From the NCBI RefSeq assembly GCF_000381125.1, contig NZ_KB905934.1, positions 1 through 64,000 on the forward strand: DNA of 64,000 nucleotides. The letters run 5' to 3'. This stretch comes from Caldimonas manganoxidans ATCC BAA-369 (GTDB lineage: Bacteria > Pseudomonadota > Gammaproteobacteria > Burkholderiales > Burkholderiaceae_C). The translations under genes and the position numbers were made by a program. Position 1 is the first letter of the stretch. Each line of letters starts with the position of its first letter. Below, piece by piece: positions 1,345-13,155 of the stretch. The notes below the pieces were generated by a model that saw only the letters and a list, made by a program, of their open reading frames with translations, was not told the origin of the DNA and ran no database searches.

Positions 1345-2345
1345 CAGGACGCCAGCACCTTCACCAACACGGCCGGGCGATGGCACATCGGCAGTGGGTT
1401 GGACTGGGTGTGGATGTCGGTGCCGCGGTCGAACTTGCGCGGCTCCTGCTTGGCGTACAGCGGCTGGCCCAGCGTGTTGGCCGTCTCGTTGAAGTCGGCC
1501 GGCGCGAAGTAGGTGGCGAAGGTGTCCACCGTGCCCAGCGGGAAGGCGTGGCCCTCGCCGGCGGCGATGAAGCGGCGCGTGGTGTCGCCGTCGCTGGCCT
1601 CGCCCGAATATTCCTCGAAGGTGATGCCAGCGAAGGTAAAGCCCGCGCGCATGTCCGAGCGCAGGGCCAGGCTGTCCTGCCAGCGGTCGTAGGCGGCGAC
1701 GACCTTCTCATGGCTGGTCAGCGCATCGAAGAACTCCTCGGACACCAGGCAGTGGATGCCGGTCATGCGCTCGCCCATGAGGTTCTTTTCCATGTAGCGC
1801 TTGAGCTCGAGACACTTCTTCTTGACGTCGGTGCCCGGGTTGCCGAGCTGAAAGTTGATGACCTTGGGCGAGATCTCGAACAAGTCGAACAGGTTGTAGA
1901 GCTCGGTGCCGTCGGCATCGAGGATGCTGCCTTTCAAGGCACCCATGCGCAGATGCTCCAGGGTGATGGCGTGCTTGTTGCGCATTGCCTGCAGGTGCTC
2001 GGCCATCACCGCCGCCACGGTCTGCACCTCGGTCTCCGAACCGAAGGCGCGGATGCCCTGCACTTCCTCGGGCAGCACCACGTCGTCGTGCGGGATGTGC
2101 GGGATGCCGAACGAGCGCAGCTTGCGCTTGCCGCGCTTGGCCACCGTGCCGGGCGAGCCCACCGGCATCGTCGGCAGCAGGGTGAGCACGCCGTTCTTCT
2201 CCTCCACGGCGACCGAGCGAAAGCGAACCGGCTTGGCTGGGAACAGACCCATCTCTTCCAGGCGGCCGTAGTTGTTGGGCAGGATGTTGATGGCGGCGGT
2301 CAGCGCCGACATCGAGAAGGCGGGGTTCTCGAAGGGGTTGTTCAT
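1344..2345 (-). CDS. Major capsid protein (lambda gpE family)
   Basis: 333 aa, starting MNNPFENPAFSMSALTAAIN. It builds the icosahedral shell. The N-terminal INILPNNYGRLEEMGLFP segment, the KRKLRSFGIPHIPHDDVVLP stretch and the late segment YAKQEPRKFDRGTDIHTQSN are characteristic of the phage capsid protein E family, and the length is typical. The start chosen is two bases after the decoration gene stop. The 30 residues further upstream are low-quality out-of-gene sequence. It follows protease and decoration genes in the standard lambda order. Confidence 0.92.
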   Translation of the reverse strand: MNNPFENPAFSMSALTAAINILPNNYGRLEEMGLFPAKPVRFRSVAVEEKNGVLTLLPTMPVGSPGTVAKRGKRKLRSFGIPHIPHDDVVLPEEVQGIRAFGSETEVQTVAAVMAEHLQAMRNKHAITLEHLRMGALKGSILDADGTELYNLFDLFEISPKVINFQLGNPGTDVKKKCLELKRYMEKNLMGERMTGIHCLVSEEFFDALTSHEKVVAAYDRWQDSLALRSDMRAGFTFAGITFEEYSGEASDGDTTRRFIAAGEGHAFPLGTVDTFATYFAPADFNETANTLGQPLYAKQEPRKFDRGTDIHTQSNPLPMCHRPAVLVKVLAS

Positions 2346-2347
2346 CG

Positions 2348-2725
2348 TCAGACTCCTTTGCGCACGAGGATGCCCAGGCTCTTGAGCTGCGCGATGGCAG
2401 CCTGCTTTTCCGAGGCGGTGATGGCGGCGGGCCACGCCAGGGCGTGATCGGCGACGATGGCGTGGCGGGCCAGCATCAGCCCGTCCTCGCGGTCGATGAG
2501 CGTGGCGTCCACGGCTTGCATCAGCACGCCGGCGGCCACCTGGCTGCCATCGGTGGCCGATGGGTCGAGTCTCTTGACCTTGCCGGTGGCGGTGACCAAG
2601 CCGACGACCGCGCCCAGGGGCAAGTTCTGGCCCGCGCCGACCGTGACCTGGTCGCGGGAATAGAGATTGGGCGCTTCGTACTTCAGAAGATCGCCCAGGT
2701 TCAGTCCTTCGGTGATGGCGGGCAT
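2348..2725 (-). CDS. Head decoration protein (lambda gpD family)
   Basis: 125 aa, starting MPAITEGLNLGDLLKYEAPN. Decoration proteins bind the outside of the expanded capsid as trimers and stabilise it against DNA pressure. The segments LGAVVGLVTATGKVKRLDPS and AAGVLMQAVDAT are typical of the gpD fold, and the size is right. It sits between the protease and the capsid gene, as in lambda. The C-terminus (AIAQLKSLGILVRKGV) is the usual family ending. Confidence 0.85.
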   Translation of the reverse strand: MPAITEGLNLGDLLKYEAPNLYSRDQVTVGAGQNLPLGAVVGLVTATGKVKRLDPSATDGSQVAAGVLMQAVDATLIDREDGLMLARHAIVADHALAWPAAITASEKQAAIAQLKSLGILVRKGV

Positions 2726-2726
2726 G

Positions 2727-3050
2727 TCACTTCTCCTTGCCGGCGCGGGCGCGGGCCGCCTGCACCAGGGGGTTGTCGTGGAGGGATGGGGGATTCGGCT
2801 TGGCCGCATCCGGCGCGATGTGGCTGTGGATCTCCTGCCCGCTGGCGCGGACAGCCAGCAGCTGGCTGCGCACCTGGGCGGGTGGCGTGCGTGCGGCGAG
2901 GTAAGCGGCGATGCGCTCGGGGCAGCCCGCCAGCGCGCACAGTTCGGCGATCTCCTGTGCGTCATCGATGCTCATCGGCGGATGCGCGCCAACAGCGCGA
3001 TCAGGATCAGCACCAAGCCCAGGGTCAGCAGGGGTTCCGGGTTCATTCAT
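2727..3050 (-). CDS. Probable nested scaffold protein (in-frame within protease gene)
   Basis: An internal ATG in the protease frame (MNEPGTPADPGLG) is preceded by GGAG six bases upstream, which would give a 107-aa protein with the same C-terminus as the protease. In lambda the scaffold Nu3 is made exactly this way from within gene C. The product would contain the helical segment SIDDAQEIAELCALAG and a basic end (ARARAGKEK), suitable for scaffold-capsid contacts. The ribosome site is seen directly; expression is inference. Confidence 0.5.
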   Translation of the reverse strand: MNEPGTPADPGLGADPDRAVGAHPPMSIDDAQEIAELCALAGCPERIAAYLAARTPPAQVRSQLLAVRASGQEIHSHIAPDAAKPNPPSLHDNPLVQAARARAGKEK

Positions 3051-3935
3051 GACATGCTCCAGTCGTGGTGAGTGAAGGTGTCCCGGCGGCGCGAAGGCAC
3101 GCGTCGCCGGCGGTGAAAGTGCCGCGGTCAAATCGGCCAGCAGGTCGTCGAAGGTGCCGATGGCATCGGCCAGCCCTGCCGCGACGGCGTCCTGTCCGAA
3201 GAACACGCCGGCTTCGGTGGCACGCACCGCGTCCGCGCTCAAGCCGCGATGGCGGGCCACGGTGTCGACAAACAGGCCGTAGATCCGATCCACCTCGCGC
3301 TTGAGCAAGGCGTGGGCTTCGTCCGAGATCGGCTCGTGCGGGTTGAGGTCGTTCTTGCGTGCGCCGGCGAACACGGTCGTGTACCGGATGCCATCCTGGG
3401 CATCGCGCACCGACTGATCCGCGTGCATGGCGATGACGCCAATCGAGCCAACGCCTGCGGTCCGGGTAACCACGAGGCGGCTGGCAGCCGAGCCGATGGC
3501 GTAGGCCGCCGAGTAGGCCATGTCGTTGGCCAGCGCCCAGACTGGCTTGATCTGTGCGGCCGCACGCACGCGGTCGGCCAGGTCGAACACGCCACCGGAC
3601 TCGCCGCCGGGTGAGTCGATGTCCAGCACGATGGCCGCGACCGCTGGGTCGGCGATCGCCGCATCCAGCTGCGCGGCGATGTCCTGGTAGCTGGTCAGCC
3701 CTGAGGCGGCTTCCAGCCCGCCAGTGCGCCGCACCAACGTGCCGTGGATCGGCAAGACGGCGATGCCCGCCTTGGCGGCAGGCGGGCTGCGCAGAGCGGG
3801 TGGCGGTAGCGTCGCTCCTCTATCCGCCAAACCGATGCGCGGCCCCAGCACGGCCAGGATGACCTCAAGTTTCGGGCGATGGATCAGCAGCGGCGCGCCA
3901 AATAGACGCGCCGCCAGATGCGGCAACGGGATCAT
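2727..3935 (-). CDS. S49-family head maturation protease (gpC-like)
   Basis: 402 aa. An SppA-type serine protease that processes scaffold and portal during prohead maturation. The nucleophile is probably Ser142 in MAYSAAYAIGSAA. The general base is probably Lys194 in GARKND, 52 residues downstream, the spacing I recall for the lambda gpC dyad. The conserved VLDIDSPGG loop is at about residues 104-111. The C-terminal third, after about residue 295, is non-catalytic, Pro/Ala-rich and helical, and has its own internal start (separate entry). It lies between portal and decoration genes. Confidence 0.9.
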   Translation of the reverse strand: MIPLPHLAARLFGAPLLIHRPKLEVILAVLGPRIGLADRGATLPPPALRSPPAAKAGIAVLPIHGTLVRRTGGLEAASGLTSYQDIAAQLDAAIADPAVAAIVLDIDSPGGESGGVFDLADRVRAAAQIKPVWALANDMAYSAAYAIGSAASRLVVTRTAGVGSIGVIAMHADQSVRDAQDGIRYTTVFAGARKNDLNPHEPISDEAHALLKREVDRIYGLFVDTVARHRGLSADAVRATEAGVFFGQDAVAAGLADAIGTFDDLLADLTAALSPPATRAFAPPGHLHSPRLEHVMNEPGTPADPGLGADPDRAVGAHPPMSIDDAQEIAELCALAGCPERIAAYLAARTPPAQVRSQLLAVRASGQEIHSHIAPDAAKPNPPSLHDNPLVQAARARAGKEK

Positions 3936-3945
3936 GCGGGTTCCT

Positions 3946-5433
3946 TCAGGCGGCCGGCGCAGGGCTATCGGCGGCCTGTGCGTTGGGTTCGGCGCTGCCG
4001 CCGCCCTTGGTCGTGCGGCGCGGATCGGAGTCGAAGATCAGGCCGAGGTCATCGGCACGCTGGTTGTCGGCGGCGATCTCGCGGTCCACATCCTCGGCGT
4101 CGTAGCCAAAGGCCGAGATCGCTTCCGAGCGGCTCATGAGGCCCGCGCGGATCGCCAGCAGCATCGCCTTGAACTCTTTTTCGGGGTCGACCCACTGCCA
4201 GCCCTGGGGAATCCATTTGCAGGCCAGATACTCCCGCCGGCGGCGGGCATAGCCGGGCGCCGTGAGGCCGCCGGCCAGCACGGCCTGATCGAGCCAGGCG
4301 TTCCACACCGGGCGGCACAGCTGGTGCACCAGCACGCCGTGCTGGATCGCCTCGGTGCGGCGGCGGAATTCCAAGAGCCCCGCGCGGATGGAGGAGTAGT
4401 TCACGCCGGAGAGGTCTCCGGTCAATTGCTCGTAGGTCACGCCGATGGCCGCGGCGACCGCGCGAAACTGCGCGCGCAGGAACTCGCCGTAGCTGCCGCC
4501 CACATCGGCCGGATCGGAGAACTTCACGTCCTCGCCCGGCTCCAAAATCTGCAAGGTTCCGGGCTCCATCCCCGCCAGCGCGATGCCGGCATCGTTGGCC
4601 ACGCCTTCGCCCATCAGGTTGTCCTCGGGAGCAAGCCGCGTGATGAAGCCGGCGAACATCGCCGCGGTTTTCTTGCGCACGAGCTCGGCGTCGTCGTACT
4701 GGTCCAGCTCGTTGAGCTTGACCAGCGCGCGCGCGAGCCACGGCTCGCCGCGGATCTGGCCAGGGCGCAGCACGCGGTAGAGGTGCATGATCTCGGTTGC
4801 CGGAACTCGCACCGTCTCCTGCCCGCCCTGGCCCGACATGGGCGCAAGCCGCCCATCTTCGGGGTGGGAGCGATACAGGTGGTAGGCCACGCGCCGCCCC
4901 AGGCTGTCGAACTCGATGCCGGCGCGCACGACGTTGCCCGAGGGCAGTTCCGTGTTGAGATGCAGCGGCAGATGCTCGGCTTCGAGAAGCTGCAATTGCA
5001 GCGGCACGATCAGGCCGTCCTCCGGACGCCGCCAGCGCAGCCGGATCAGGCACTCGCCCCCCTCGAGCATGGCCCGGCAGGCCAGCGCCTGCAGGCCGTA
5101 GAAATCGGTTTGCCCGGTGGTGTCGGCCACCTCCGTCCAGTCGCGCCACAGCGCCTGCACGTCGGCGCGGAAGGCTTCATCCTCGGCCATCGACTGCGGT
5201 TTGATGCCGGTGCCCACCGCGTTGGCGACGAACGCCTCGATACCGGCATTGGCCCAGGCGTTGCGCCGCACCAGGTCGCGGCTCTTGGTGCGCAGTTCGG
5301 CGCTCGTGGCCAGCATCGCCGCCACCGCGCCGGGGTTACCGGGCATCCACGCCAAGGAGCGACGGCCACGGCCGGCGGCCTCGTGCACCGGCGGCCCGCC
5401 GAACAGACTGCGGATCTTCGCGTACCAGGCCAT
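3946..5433 (-). CDS. Portal protein (lambda gpB family)
   Basis: 495 aa, starting MAWYAKIRSLFGGPP. It forms the dodecameric ring at the capsid vertex through which DNA enters and leaves. Family signs are an early SRDLVRRNAWANAGIEAFV segment, GTGIKPQSM, the ARALVKLNELDQYDDAELVR helix and SGVNYSSIRAGLLEFRRR near the middle, all typical of lambda-type portals. Its ATG overlaps the gpW stop by one base (TGATG). The end is Pro/Ala-rich and variable. A reading that extends upstream through gpW in another frame is spurious. Confidence 0.92.
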   Translation of the reverse strand: MAWYAKIRSLFGGPPVHEAAGRGRRSLAWMPGNPGAVAAMLATSAELRTKSRDLVRRNAWANAGIEAFVANAVGTGIKPQSMAEDEAFRADVQALWRDWTEVADTTGQTDFYGLQALACRAMLEGGECLIRLRWRRPEDGLIVPLQLQLLEAEHLPLHLNTELPSGNVVRAGIEFDSLGRRVAYHLYRSHPEDGRLAPMSGQGGQETVRVPATEIMHLYRVLRPGQIRGEPWLARALVKLNELDQYDDAELVRKKTAAMFAGFITRLAPEDNLMGEGVANDAGIALAGMEPGTLQILEPGEDVKFSDPADVGGSYGEFLRAQFRAVAAAIGVTYEQLTGDLSGVNYSSIRAGLLEFRRRTEAIQHGVLVHQLCRPVWNAWLDQAVLAGGLTAPGYARRRREYLACKWIPQGWQWVDPEKEFKAMLLAIRAGLMSRSEAISAFGYDAEDVDREIAADNQRADDLGLIFDSDPRRTTKGGGSAEPNAQAADSPAPAA

Positions 5434-9855: not shown

Positions 9856-10449
9856 ATGACCACCATCGCCCTGACCCCGACCCAGCACGCCATCCTGGCC
9901 TACGCCATCGAGCACAGCGGCGGCAAGATCGACTGGTTCCCCGAGCACATCAAGGGCGGCGCCCGCCAGAAGGTGCTGGACGGCCTCGCCAACCGTGCCC
10001 TGATCGCCCCCGCGGGGACCGACTGGTTCGTCGCCGCCGAGGGCTACGCCGTCCTGGGGCTGCCACGCCCGGGCGCGAAGACATCGCGCGTGGGCTCGTT
10101 CGAAGCCCAGCTCGATCGGATCATCGCCAACGCGGAGCAGGCAACCGCTGCGAGCGATCCCGAGCTGGAGGCGGCCGTGACCGCTGCCGAAGCCACGTGG
10201 ACGCAGGCGAAGGACGATGCGCCGCGCCGCACCCGCGCCGACAGCAAGCAGGCGCAGGTGATCGCGATGCTGCGACGTCCTGGGGGCGCCACGATTCGTC
10301 AGATCATGGACGTCACCGGCTGGCAGGCGCACACCGTGCGCGGCGCCCTGGCCGGAGCGCTCAAGAAGAAACTGGGCCTGAGCATCGCGTCGGACAAGCC
10401 CCAGGGCGGCGAGCGCGTCTACAGGATCATCGAGCAGGACGCCGCCTGA
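9856..10449 (+). CDS. DUF3489 domain protein (winged-helix-like C-terminus)
   Basis: 197 aa, starting MTTIALTPTQHAILAYAIEH, with GAAGGAG upstream. The N-terminal half resembles a small winged helix. The C-terminal half (KQAQVIAMLRRPGGATIRQI, then TGWQAHTVRGALAGALKKKL) is the DUF3489 domain, a helix-turn-helix-like fold found on mobile elements. The middle is acidic and flexible. Its last 31 bases overlap the 3' end of the convergent methyltransferase gene. A DNA-binding regulatory role is inferred. Confidence 0.75.
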   Translation: MTTIALTPTQHAILAYAIEHSGGKIDWFPEHIKGGARQKVLDGLANRALIAPAGTDWFVAAEGYAVLGLPRPGAKTSRVGSFEAQLDRIIANAEQATAASDPELEAAVTAAEATWTQAKDDAPRRTRADSKQAQVIAMLRRPGGATIRQIMDVTGWQAHTVRGALAGALKKKLGLSIASDKPQGGERVYRIIEQDAA

Positions 10450-11681
10450 TCGAACGCCACGCCATCCGCCTCGCGGGTGGCTTGCTGGCCGGTGAAGTCC
10501 TCCCACCGGCGCACGATCACGTCCACGTACTTCGGATCGAGCTCGATCAGCCTGGCGATGCGGCCGGACTTTTCCGCGGCGATCAGCGTCGTGCCCGAGC
10601 CACCGAAGGGGTCCAGTACGACATCACCAGGGCGGCTCGAGTTTCGGATCGCCCGCTCGACGAGTTCCACCGGCTTCATCGTTGGGTGCAAGTCGTTCTT
10701 CTGCGGCTTCTTGATCTGCCACACATCGCCCTGGTCGCGGTCGCCGCACCAGTGGCGACTCGCCCCTTCCGGCCAGCCGTAGAGGATCGGCTCGTACTGG
10801 CGCTGGTAGTCGGAGCGGCCCAGCGTGAAGGTGTGCTTGGCCCAGATGATGAAGGTGGACCAGTGGCCGCCGGCGGCGCGAAAGGCCGATTGCAGCACGT
10901 CCAGCTCGCTGGAGGACATGGCCACATAGATCGCGCCGCGGCAGTGAGCGATGGTGGGCCTCAAGGCCGCCAGCAGGAAGTCGTGGAAGCCGTCACCCAG
11001 GTTGTCGTTGAGGATGGCGCGGTCCTTGCCGCGCAGCTTGTCTTTCGCTGAGTTCGCGTAGTTGACGTTGTATGGCGGATCGGTGAACACCATGTCCGCC
11101 ACCGCGCCTTGCATCAGCCGCTCAAAGCTCTCGGCCAGGGTCGCGTCGCCGCACAGCAGCCGGTGCGGGCCCATGATCCAGACATCGCCGGGGCGTGAGA
11201 TGGGCGTCTCGCCGACCTCGGGCACCGCGTCCTCATCGGTCTGGCCCTCAAAGTCTGGCTCGTCGCCCGCGATCAGTTCGGCCAGCGCGTCGGCGTCGAA
11301 GCCGGTCAGGTCCAGATCGAAGCCCTCGGCCTGCAGGTCTTGCAGCTCGATGCGCAGCAGTTGCTCGTCCCAGCCGGCGTTCTCCGCGATGCGGTTGTCG
11401 GCGATCACGAGCGCCCGGCGCTGGGTCGGCGTCAGATGATCGAGCACGACCACCGGCACCCGCTCCAGCCCGAGCTTGCGGGCGGCCGCGAGCCGCCCGT
11501 GTCCGGCGACGATCACCCCGTCGCTGCCTACCAGGATCGGATTGGTGAAGCCGAACTCGGCGATGGAAGCCGCAATCTGCGCCACCTGCTCCTCGGAGTG
11601 GGTGCGCGCATTGCGGGCGTAGGGGATGAGCTGGGCGGTCGGCCACTGCTCGATCCGCTCGGCCAGCCACGACGCGCTCAT
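10419..11681 (-). CDS. ParB-like domain / DNA methyltransferase fusion (DPPY type)
   Basis: 420 aa, starting MSASWLAERIEQWPTAQLIP. Residues 1 to about 120 form a ParB/sulfiredoxin-like domain (FGFTNPILV, then VIVAGHGRLAAARKLG and VIADNRIAENAGWDEQLL). The C-terminal half is an amino-methyltransferase of beta order: DPPYNVNYAN (motif IV) comes before DPFGGSGTTLIAAEK (motif I). DPPY fits adenine-N6 or cytosine-N4 methylation. The start overlaps the upstream gene stop (ATGA). Probable role: protection of phage DNA from host restriction. Confidence 0.88.
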   Translation of the reverse strand: MSASWLAERIEQWPTAQLIPYARNARTHSEEQVAQIAASIAEFGFTNPILVGSDGVIVAGHGRLAAARKLGLERVPVVVLDHLTPTQRRALVIADNRIAENAGWDEQLLRIELQDLQAEGFDLDLTGFDADALAELIAGDEPDFEGQTDEDAVPEVGETPISRPGDVWIMGPHRLLCGDATLAESFERLMQGAVADMVFTDPPYNVNYANSAKDKLRGKDRAILNDNLGDGFHDFLLAALRPTIAHCRGAIYVAMSSSELDVLQSAFRAAGGHWSTFIIWAKHTFTLGRSDYQRQYEPILYGWPEGASRHWCGDRDQGDVWQIKKPQKNDLHPTMKPVELVERAIRNSSRPGDVVLDPFGGSGTTLIAAEKSGRIARLIELDPKYVDVIVRRWEDFTGQQATREADGVAFDQAASCSMIL

Positions 11682-13081
11682 GCCGGGACTGCCTCCGTCG
11701 CCCGCCGCTCGGCCGCCACTTCCTCGAAGGACTGGCCGGTGGCGGCCAGCGTCACCGGCACGCCAGGGTGGTTCTGCCGGAAGCGCTCGATGGCCACGTC
11801 CACGTACTCCGGCGCGATCTCCACGCTGCGGCAGACGCGGCCGGTGCGCTCGGCGGCCAGCATCGTCGTGCCGCTGCCGCCAAAGGGCTCGAACACGACG
11901 TCGCCGGGATCCGTGTACGCCTCGATCACGAATTGCGGCAGCGCCACCGGGAACACGGCCGGGTGGTCGATGCCCTGGCCAATCCTGCCCTTGTGGCGCA
12001 TCAGGCGAATCACCGAGTCGGGGATGCGCTTGTCCTGCGTGGGCTGGCCGGCATGGGTCCAGCCGCCCACTTCGCCGTCTTTGCCGCGCATCGCCGTCGA
12101 TGACCCATCGGCGCGCAGGTGGGTCTCTTGCCCGGCGAACTTGCACGGCACGATCTTGTTCGGTTTGCGGCTGGTGCGGTTGAAGTGAAAGACGAACTCG
12201 AAGGCAGGCGCCAGCCGCCCCTGCCAGTCGCCGGGCATCCCCGGACCTTGATCCCAGACGTACCACGCGAAGCGCCGCCAGCCCTGCTGGCGCATCCAGG
12301 CCATCCACCCGTCCCAGTACGGGATCACTTCGTTGTCGCGGTGGATCAGGCCGAGGTTCACCAGCACCTGGCCGTCGTCTGCCATCGGCAGATGGGCGAA
12401 GACGCCGCGCATCAGGCCGTCCCAATCGGCAATGCCGCCGGTGGTGTAGTCGCGCTGGTTGCCGTAGGGCGGCGAGGTGAAGCACAACGCAGCCGTCTCG
12501 CCCTGCATCAGCGCAGCCACCACGTCCCGGTCGGTGGCATCGCCGCAGATGAGGCGGTGCTGGCCGAGCACCCAGAGGTCGCCGGTGCGGGAGACCGGCA
12601 CGATCGGGGCCTCGGGTACGTCGTCTGCAGCGTCCGGCGACTCGGCTTCGGGCTCAGATTGGTCATCGACCGCCGCCTCGGCGAGCATCGCTTCGATCTC
12701 GGATCCGTCGAACCCGGTGAGCGCCAGGTCGTAGCCGGCTTCCGACAACTCGGCCAGTTCCAGCGCGAGCAGTTCCTCGTCCCAGCCCGCATCGAGCGCC
12801 AGGCGGTTGTCGGCCAAGACGAGGGCGCGCTTTTGCGCCGGGGTCAGGTGCGCCAGTTCGATGACCGGAACTTCGGTCATCCCCAGCTTGCGCGCAGCCA
12901 GCACTCGGCCGTGGCCGGCGATGATGCCGTTTGCGCCATCGACCAGGATCGGGTTGGTGAAGCCGAACTCCGCGATGGAAGCGGCGATCTTGGCGATCTG
13001 CGCCTCGGTGTGCGTGCGCGGGTTGCGCGCGTAGGGAATCAGCGCCTCGACCTTGCGGTACTCGACGTGCAGCGTGTTCAA
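11678..13081 (-). CDS. ParB-like domain / DNA methyltransferase fusion (SPPY type)
   Basis: 467 aa from a TTG start (LNTLHVEYRKVE). An ATG 17 codons further upstream (13132) is possible but would place a terminator-like hairpin inside the coding region. The ParB-like domain (IIAGHGRVLAARKLGM, then VLADNRLALDAGWDEELL) is followed by a methyltransferase with TSPPYGNQRDY (motif IV) and FEPFGGSGTTMLAAER (motif I). SPPY is the usual cytosine-N4 signature. It is a close relative of the next gene, probably from a duplication, with a different target base likely. Confidence 0.85.
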   Translation of the reverse strand: MNTLHVEYRKVEALIPYARNPRTHTEAQIAKIAASIAEFGFTNPILVDGANGIIAGHGRVLAARKLGMTEVPVIELAHLTPAQKRALVLADNRLALDAGWDEELLALELAELSEAGYDLALTGFDGSEIEAMLAEAAVDDQSEPEAESPDAADDVPEAPIVPVSRTGDLWVLGQHRLICGDATDRDVVAALMQGETAALCFTSPPYGNQRDYTTGGIADWDGLMRGVFAHLPMADDGQVLVNLGLIHRDNEVIPYWDGWMAWMRQQGWRRFAWYVWDQGPGMPGDWQGRLAPAFEFVFHFNRTSRKPNKIVPCKFAGQETHLRADGSSTAMRGKDGEVGGWTHAGQPTQDKRIPDSVIRLMRHKGRIGQGIDHPAVFPVALPQFVIEAYTDPGDVVFEPFGGSGTTMLAAERTGRVCRSVEIAPEYVDVAIERFRQNHPGVPVTLAATGQSFEEVAAERRATEAVPA

Positions 13082-13097
13082 GGGAGAAGTCCAAAAG

Positions 13098-13131
13098 CAA
13101 AACCCGCCGGGCCTTGCCGCCGGGCGGGTCA
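13098..13131 (-). terminator. Intrinsic terminator-like hairpin before the methyltransferase pair
   Basis: Read on the minus strand: an ACCCGCC arm, a GC-rich loop region, a GGCGGGT arm and then TTTTGCTTTT. This would end transcription coming from the early genes upstream. Its position argues for the TTG start of the methyltransferase. Confidence 0.55.
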
Positions 13132-13155
13132 TGTGAGTTCGGGTTCGGGTGAGGC

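Follow-up and report, generated by a model that had tools for sequence, protein, structure and literature searches.

A lambda-type head protease gene in a Caldimonas prophage with a nested in-frame start and a predicted out-of-frame membrane microprotein

In phage lambda, the scaffold Nu3 is nested within the head protease gene C; this S49 protease, which bears a C-terminal tail, is encoded after the portal and before decoration protein D and major capsid protein E. The lambda record (NC_001416) starts Nu3 at codon 239 of C, whereas a Shine-Dalgarno (SD) sequence of the AGGAGG type precedes an in-frame ATG at codon 309 (AGGAGGGCGA-ATG); the record of phage 434 contains a note that includes the words 'real Nu3 start'. 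A different arrangement is found in Citrobacter phage phiNP and Serratia phage BZS1, in which a short, tail-less S49 protease (approximately 287 aa) is followed by a separate gene of approximately 200 codons for an acidic protein and then by the decoration protein gene. Genes may also be nested out of frame, as in Rz/Rz1 of lambda, in which one phage gene lies inside another in a shifted frame. RpnL/RpnS are likewise genes-within-genes, although they form a toxin-antitoxin system, and we know of no third product from them. Furthermore, type I toxin peptides and small holins are short proteins with a single Leu/Ile-rich helix. The locus described here shares features with each of these systems, and its protease gene appears to encode a scaffold in frame and a small membrane protein out of frame.

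The window, i.e., the whole stretch of 64,000 nucleotides analysed (Caldimonas manganoxidans ATCC BAA-369, positions 1 to 64,000 of contig NZ_KB905934.1), carries a head cluster on the reverse strand in the lambda order of portal, S49 protease, D, and E. The protease gene (2727–3935, 402 aa) matches the phrog_53 head maturation protease (E 2e-114), and its catalytic S49 domain (PF01343, E 1.6e-32) spans aa 127–270 (3126–3557) and is followed by a scaffold-like tail. For context, it is flanked by a lambda-family portal gene (3946–5430; PF05136, E 1.1e-120), the head decoration protein D gene (2348–2725; PF02924, E 2.3e-43), and the major capsid protein E gene (1344–2342; PF03864, E 1.3e-122). 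No separate scaffold-like open reading frame (ORF) was seen among portal, protease, D, and E in the ORF list, Pfam, or PHROGs, as an earlier note on this DNA had stated for the interval between portal and capsid. Position 1 (G000:C6:1) is the contig end, and the prophage is cut there, judged by eye inside its tail genes. Two small reverse-strand ORFs of 163 and 130 aa (6537–5654) lie between the terminase large subunit gene and a gpW-like gene; their best PHROGs are phrog_4757 (unknown function) and phrog_11355 (tail fiber), respectively, and tail-fibre-like genes are oddly placed amid packaging and head genes. Two further neighbouring reverse-strand ORFs (10419–13132) upstream of the packaging genes resemble, by eye, ParB/DNA-methyltransferase fusions.

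The nested in-frame ATG occupies positions 3050–3048 and encodes Met296 of the protease. It is preceded at 6 bases by GGAG (3057–3060, reverse strand), with a predicted anti-SD pairing of -5.6 kcal/mol, and thus the well-spaced start proposed by the earlier note is present. The nested cistron (2727–3050, reverse strand) would encode a 107-aa product beginning MNEPG, a likely scaffold, that lies entirely outside the S49 domain. The ATG had been placed at the opening of a non-catalytic C-terminal third; the non-catalytic character stands, because the S49 domain ends at aa 270, although the last 107 of 402 aa are closer to a quarter of the protein. An AlphaFold2 model of the tail (mean pLDDT 74, pTM 0.44) has a low-confidence N-terminus and helices at residues 28–40, 44–52, 57–69, 80–83, and 94–104. 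The nested start was recognized in the earlier note, although a second start, out of frame and 4 bases past the same ATG, had been overlooked.

Bacterial genomes contributed 29 loci to the set of protease relatives, and viral contigs contributed 80, kept from 589 relatives; the window's own genome and 150 genomes from its order were also used as sources, and a pattern scan added more. Among 208 sources, 37 gave no ORF by the criteria used, under which only ORFs bearing the tail motif were admitted; the remaining 171 tail-motif protease ORFs were reduced to 129 distinct relatives by removal of 4 without landmarks and 38 duplicates. The window enters this set through a relative whose linker is identical to its own. 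An in-frame ATG is present in all 129 in the linker that joins the catalytic domain to the tail motif, and the loss in relatives that the earlier note had named as grounds for rejection was not observed. When each gene was scored by the best ATG in its linker, a strong SD (anti-SD pairing of -5 kcal/mol or stronger) was found in 128 of the 129, comprising 84/84 relatives with the out-of-frame microprotein and 44/45 without it (the exception is L057). The best linker ATG is the nested ATG in all 84 microprotein carriers, in which the spacing from GGAG is 6 nt (68/84) or 7 nt (16/84). Conservation of the scaffold ATG within the microprotein clade could partly stem from the overlapping ORF, and the 45 microprotein-free relatives isolate the frame-0 signal because only frame 0 can account for a start there. 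In these 45, strong SDs precede 50 of 84 linker ATGs versus 20 of 137 other in-frame ATGs (p = 7e-5); with both groups pooled, the comparison (143/265 linker ATGs versus 97/335 elsewhere) is not significant (p = 0.052).

When 32 relatives among the 37 sources without a qualifying ORF were re-examined under looser criteria, the gene was located in 22, leaving 10. A strong-SD in-frame ATG follows the catalytic domain in 18 of the 22 and is absent from four, of which two run off the contig (L094, L110), one is without the tail (L123), and one is split (L095). In the last of these, the tail lies in a different frame with its ATG overlapping the protease stop, and the split could reflect a one-base assembly error. 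The window's own genome holds two more head proteases with nested-start tails and without the microprotein (L031, G000:C22; L033, G000:C59). In L041 (2001–3224), the protease domain clusters with those of the MNPQP/MNPEP subgroup, but its tail belongs to the MNDRT type, and this mosaic suggests recombination within the gene.

The nested start and the shared gene order make a C/Nu3-like arrangement in the window's protease gene well supported, as the earlier note had proposed from the lambda precedent, although the tail is not demonstrably homologous to Nu3: hhalign returned non-significant E values of 0.18 (lambda alone) and 0.1 (three-sequence alignment). Likewise, the comparison of the tail with the separate BZS1 gene was not significant (E 0.039, probability 1.3%). 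The tail had no homolog among solved structures at E ≤ 10, no tblastn match at E ≤ 1 among 50,697 phage records, and, as a model, no Foldseek match among viral models at E ≤ 0.001. At the equivalent point, lambda, PhiR12_2, Wolbachia WO, and AcaML1 likewise have an in-frame ATG, preceded by an SD of the AGGAG or AAGGAG type. The phages phiNP and BZS1 resemble the window in the succession of S49 protease, scaffold-slot protein, and decoration protein, and differ in that the scaffold-slot protein is encoded by a separate gene. In PY54, phiKO2, and BgVeeders33, the protease is tail-less and the record shows the major capsid gene next, with no decoration gene between; the phiKO2 capsid protein is recorded as N-terminally cleaved, which would fit a built-in scaffold of the HK97 type.

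When all three coding-strand frames were read, a +1-frame ORF was found whose start lies 4 bases after the scaffold ATG (ATGAATG). This overprinted ORF (2972–3046, reverse strand) would encode a 24-aa microprotein with one hydrophobic helix (MNPEPLLTLGLVLILIALLARIRR), which is probably membrane-spanning; versions in relatives include MNPQPLLLMGLALILIALLLRRPPRK and MIEPTPLLLIGLLLILLAVLLNRRPPP. It was found in 84 of the 129 distinct relatives, starting with ATG in 83 and TTG in one, and these encode 53 distinct proteins, of which the versions in 80 of 84 carriers are 24–34 aa in length and four run to 48 or 75 aa. The usual stop is missing from the ORFs of L036, L043, L049, and L190, which extend to 48–75 aa. 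Among the relatives listed, the highest +1 hydropathy reached in this region falls into one of two ranges (2.4–3.6 or ≤1.6). Four MEHHD relatives (L021, L023–L025) have a weaker +1 hydrophobic stretch (h approximately 0.9–1.0) and were not counted as carriers. In a tree of protease domains covering 126 of the 129 rows, all 81 carriers fall within one clade of 85 (support 100/98), and the four non-carriers in this clade (L046, L052, L053, and L059) suggest losses.

Furthermore, a degenerate 35-base DNA pattern was scanned over 2.9 million viral contigs regardless of gene context and matched 82 stretches, of which 80 were examined. The microprotein ORF overlapped a long frame in 79 of the 80, and 76 of these passed the protease motif test; the three that failed comprise two shortened frames (L164, L180) and one full-length frame (L176). 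The remaining match (L156) is an unrelated membrane protein. The same pattern matched 3 of 369 genomes of the class, including the window's own genome and one resembling the MNPQP type, and the reversed control matched 0. Hosts of carriers include Pseudomonadota and a Nitrospira. Against PHROGs, the window's microprotein and a second version had no match, and a third gave a sub-threshold match (E 0.13). Nothing on such an overlap was found in the literature covered, which was partial, so the microprotein is only provisionally regarded as new to us and free of prior annotation.

Selection on the +1 frame beyond that explained by frame 0 and codon usage is indicated by several comparisons. When frame 0 was resampled synonymously with each gene's own codon usage, the observed +1 hydrophobicity was reached in 0/2000 replicates for each of 44 sequences, among which the window is counted twice (as L030) and some are near-identical; four control relatives with a chance ATGAATG gave p values of 0.03–0.44. 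Codons ending in T make up 45–68% of the overlap versus 8–17% elsewhere in those genes. In three subgroups of 9, 6, and 23 sequences, the share of distinct variants that are synonymous in frame 0 is 6/25, 1/10, and 6/31 within the overlap, close to the 0.29–0.30 expected at random, versus 48/61, 37/38, and 82/107 in the body of the gene. In the +1 frame, the synonymous share is 8/25, 6/10, and 17/31, of which only the last departs from expectation (p = 0.04). Between the two main groups, identity within the overlap is 57% in the +1 frame and 27% in frame 0 (64 distinct overlap sequences, including one misgrouped row, L209, with a one-codon shift), and a stretch of the tail taken as control shows the opposite (41% and 55%, respectively). 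In each of the ten carriers scanned, hydropathy peaks at the nested start. The best z-scores of hydropathy along the gene were 1.8–5.6 in ten carriers and 0.8–3.0 in ten non-carriers; these values are modest, their ranges overlap, and they are a weaker measure than the exceedance counts, partly since many resampled stretches contain stops. The reading of the microprotein ORF as a coding sequence under selection is thus well supported at the level of sequence comparison.

With good confidence, we propose that this single gene of a lambda-type head operon gives rise to three products, i.e., a protease, a scaffold, and a membrane microprotein. The full-length product would be the S49 protease carrying the C-terminal tail. 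Internal in-frame initiation at 3050 would yield the tail alone, most likely the capsid scaffold; the separately made tail would fill the prohead, and the tail on the protease would recruit the protease, which would then degrade the scaffold. The third product would be the single-helix microprotein from the +1 start 4 nt downstream (24 aa in the window and mostly 24–34 aa in relatives), which is probably reached by 30S subunits positioned by the shared SD. What the sequences show directly are the features themselves, their conservation, and selection in the +1 frame; translation, scaffold function, and membrane insertion are what we infer here. The Arg that follows the helix suggests that the microprotein crosses the inner membrane once, with a cytoplasmic C-terminus. 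Our best guess is a late membrane-associated role in assembly or lysis, the most likely candidates being to hold assembly at the inner membrane or to weaken the membrane before lysis. Its helix type resembles that of the short type I toxin peptides and small holins, although it is encoded inside a head gene; the out-of-frame nesting resembles Rz/Rz1, although the genes and functions are unrelated to those of the window.

Release of the tail solely by self-cleavage of the protease, the ATG being an inconsequential linker Met, is an unlikely alternative to this three-product reading. Self-processing is common among phage proteases, and ATGs are in any case denser in the linker than in the body (0.027 versus 0.011 per codon); however, the strong SD at the best ATG in all but one of the distinct relatives, including those with unalignable linkers, and the separate gene in phiNP and BZS1 argue for a separately initiated product. 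The hydrophobic +1 ORF might instead be a by-product of an Ala/Asp/Pro-rich frame 0, in which T-ending Ala-Asp-Pro codons are read as Leu-Ile-Leu in the +1 frame, and the MEHHD homologs outside the clade do show weak +1 hydrophobicity (approximately 1). This is very improbable given the resampling result in every member tested, the better conservation of the +1 frame than of frame 0, and the coincidence of the hydropathy peak with the nested start. We give equally little credence to conservation of the overlap as a DNA or RNA signal rather than as protein. Nucleotide variation at its frame-0 third positions is indeed small, but the Leu codon itself changes at columns where Leu is invariant (TTG, CTC, CTG, and CTA at column 12), the +1 second positions are the least variable in each of the three groups, and Rfam returned no match at E ≤ 1 over 2300–4000.

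Regarding the function of the predicted microprotein, its small size, hydrophobicity, and inferred late-operon position would suit the main holin or the sole lysis protein of the phage. This identity is improbable, since a lysozyme gene was found on each of the three carrier contigs scanned (G150, G155, and G152), and the one in G150 comes after two genes, a phrog_6637 gene and a PF19622 gene whose product has one hydrophobic segment; neither is annotated as a holin, and together they appear to occupy a holin-like position. With a lysozyme gene on these contigs and the two genes in G150, the microprotein need not be the holin. Mimicry of a PEP-CTERM sorting signal, by which the microprotein would occupy the host exosortase, was also considered, as one variant scored 16.8 bits against TIGR02595 (cut-off 16) and the window's version scored 14.5, below the cut-off. 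The window's own genome has no match to the exosortase family PF09721, and the PEP motif is not maintained across the microprotein family, so this idea is largely refuted for this host and retains hardly any credibility. No exosortase was found on eight carrier contigs either, which are virus contigs and thus uninformative about hosts.

Returning to the three-product reading, the nested scaffold would bring the C/Nu3 arrangement into a group of prophages represented here almost exclusively by genomic and metagenomic sequences, and a nested start with an SD offers a simple sequence test for arrangements of this type. The microprotein, if real, would represent a gene family that standard annotation misses owing to its very small size and its position within a longer gene, and would point to a connection between the assembly of phage heads and the cell membrane. 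On balance, although with less assurance than for the three products themselves, we favour a broader reading in which one ribosome-binding site in the head-protease gene directs synthesis from two frames, yielding the scaffold from one and, from the other, a membrane microprotein of a new phage family (mostly 24–34 aa), and so ties capsid assembly to membrane activity through membrane-held assembly or lysis timing; this family would have been born by overprinting on a disordered linker and would have spread unannotated through prophages of Pseudomonadota and Nitrospirota.
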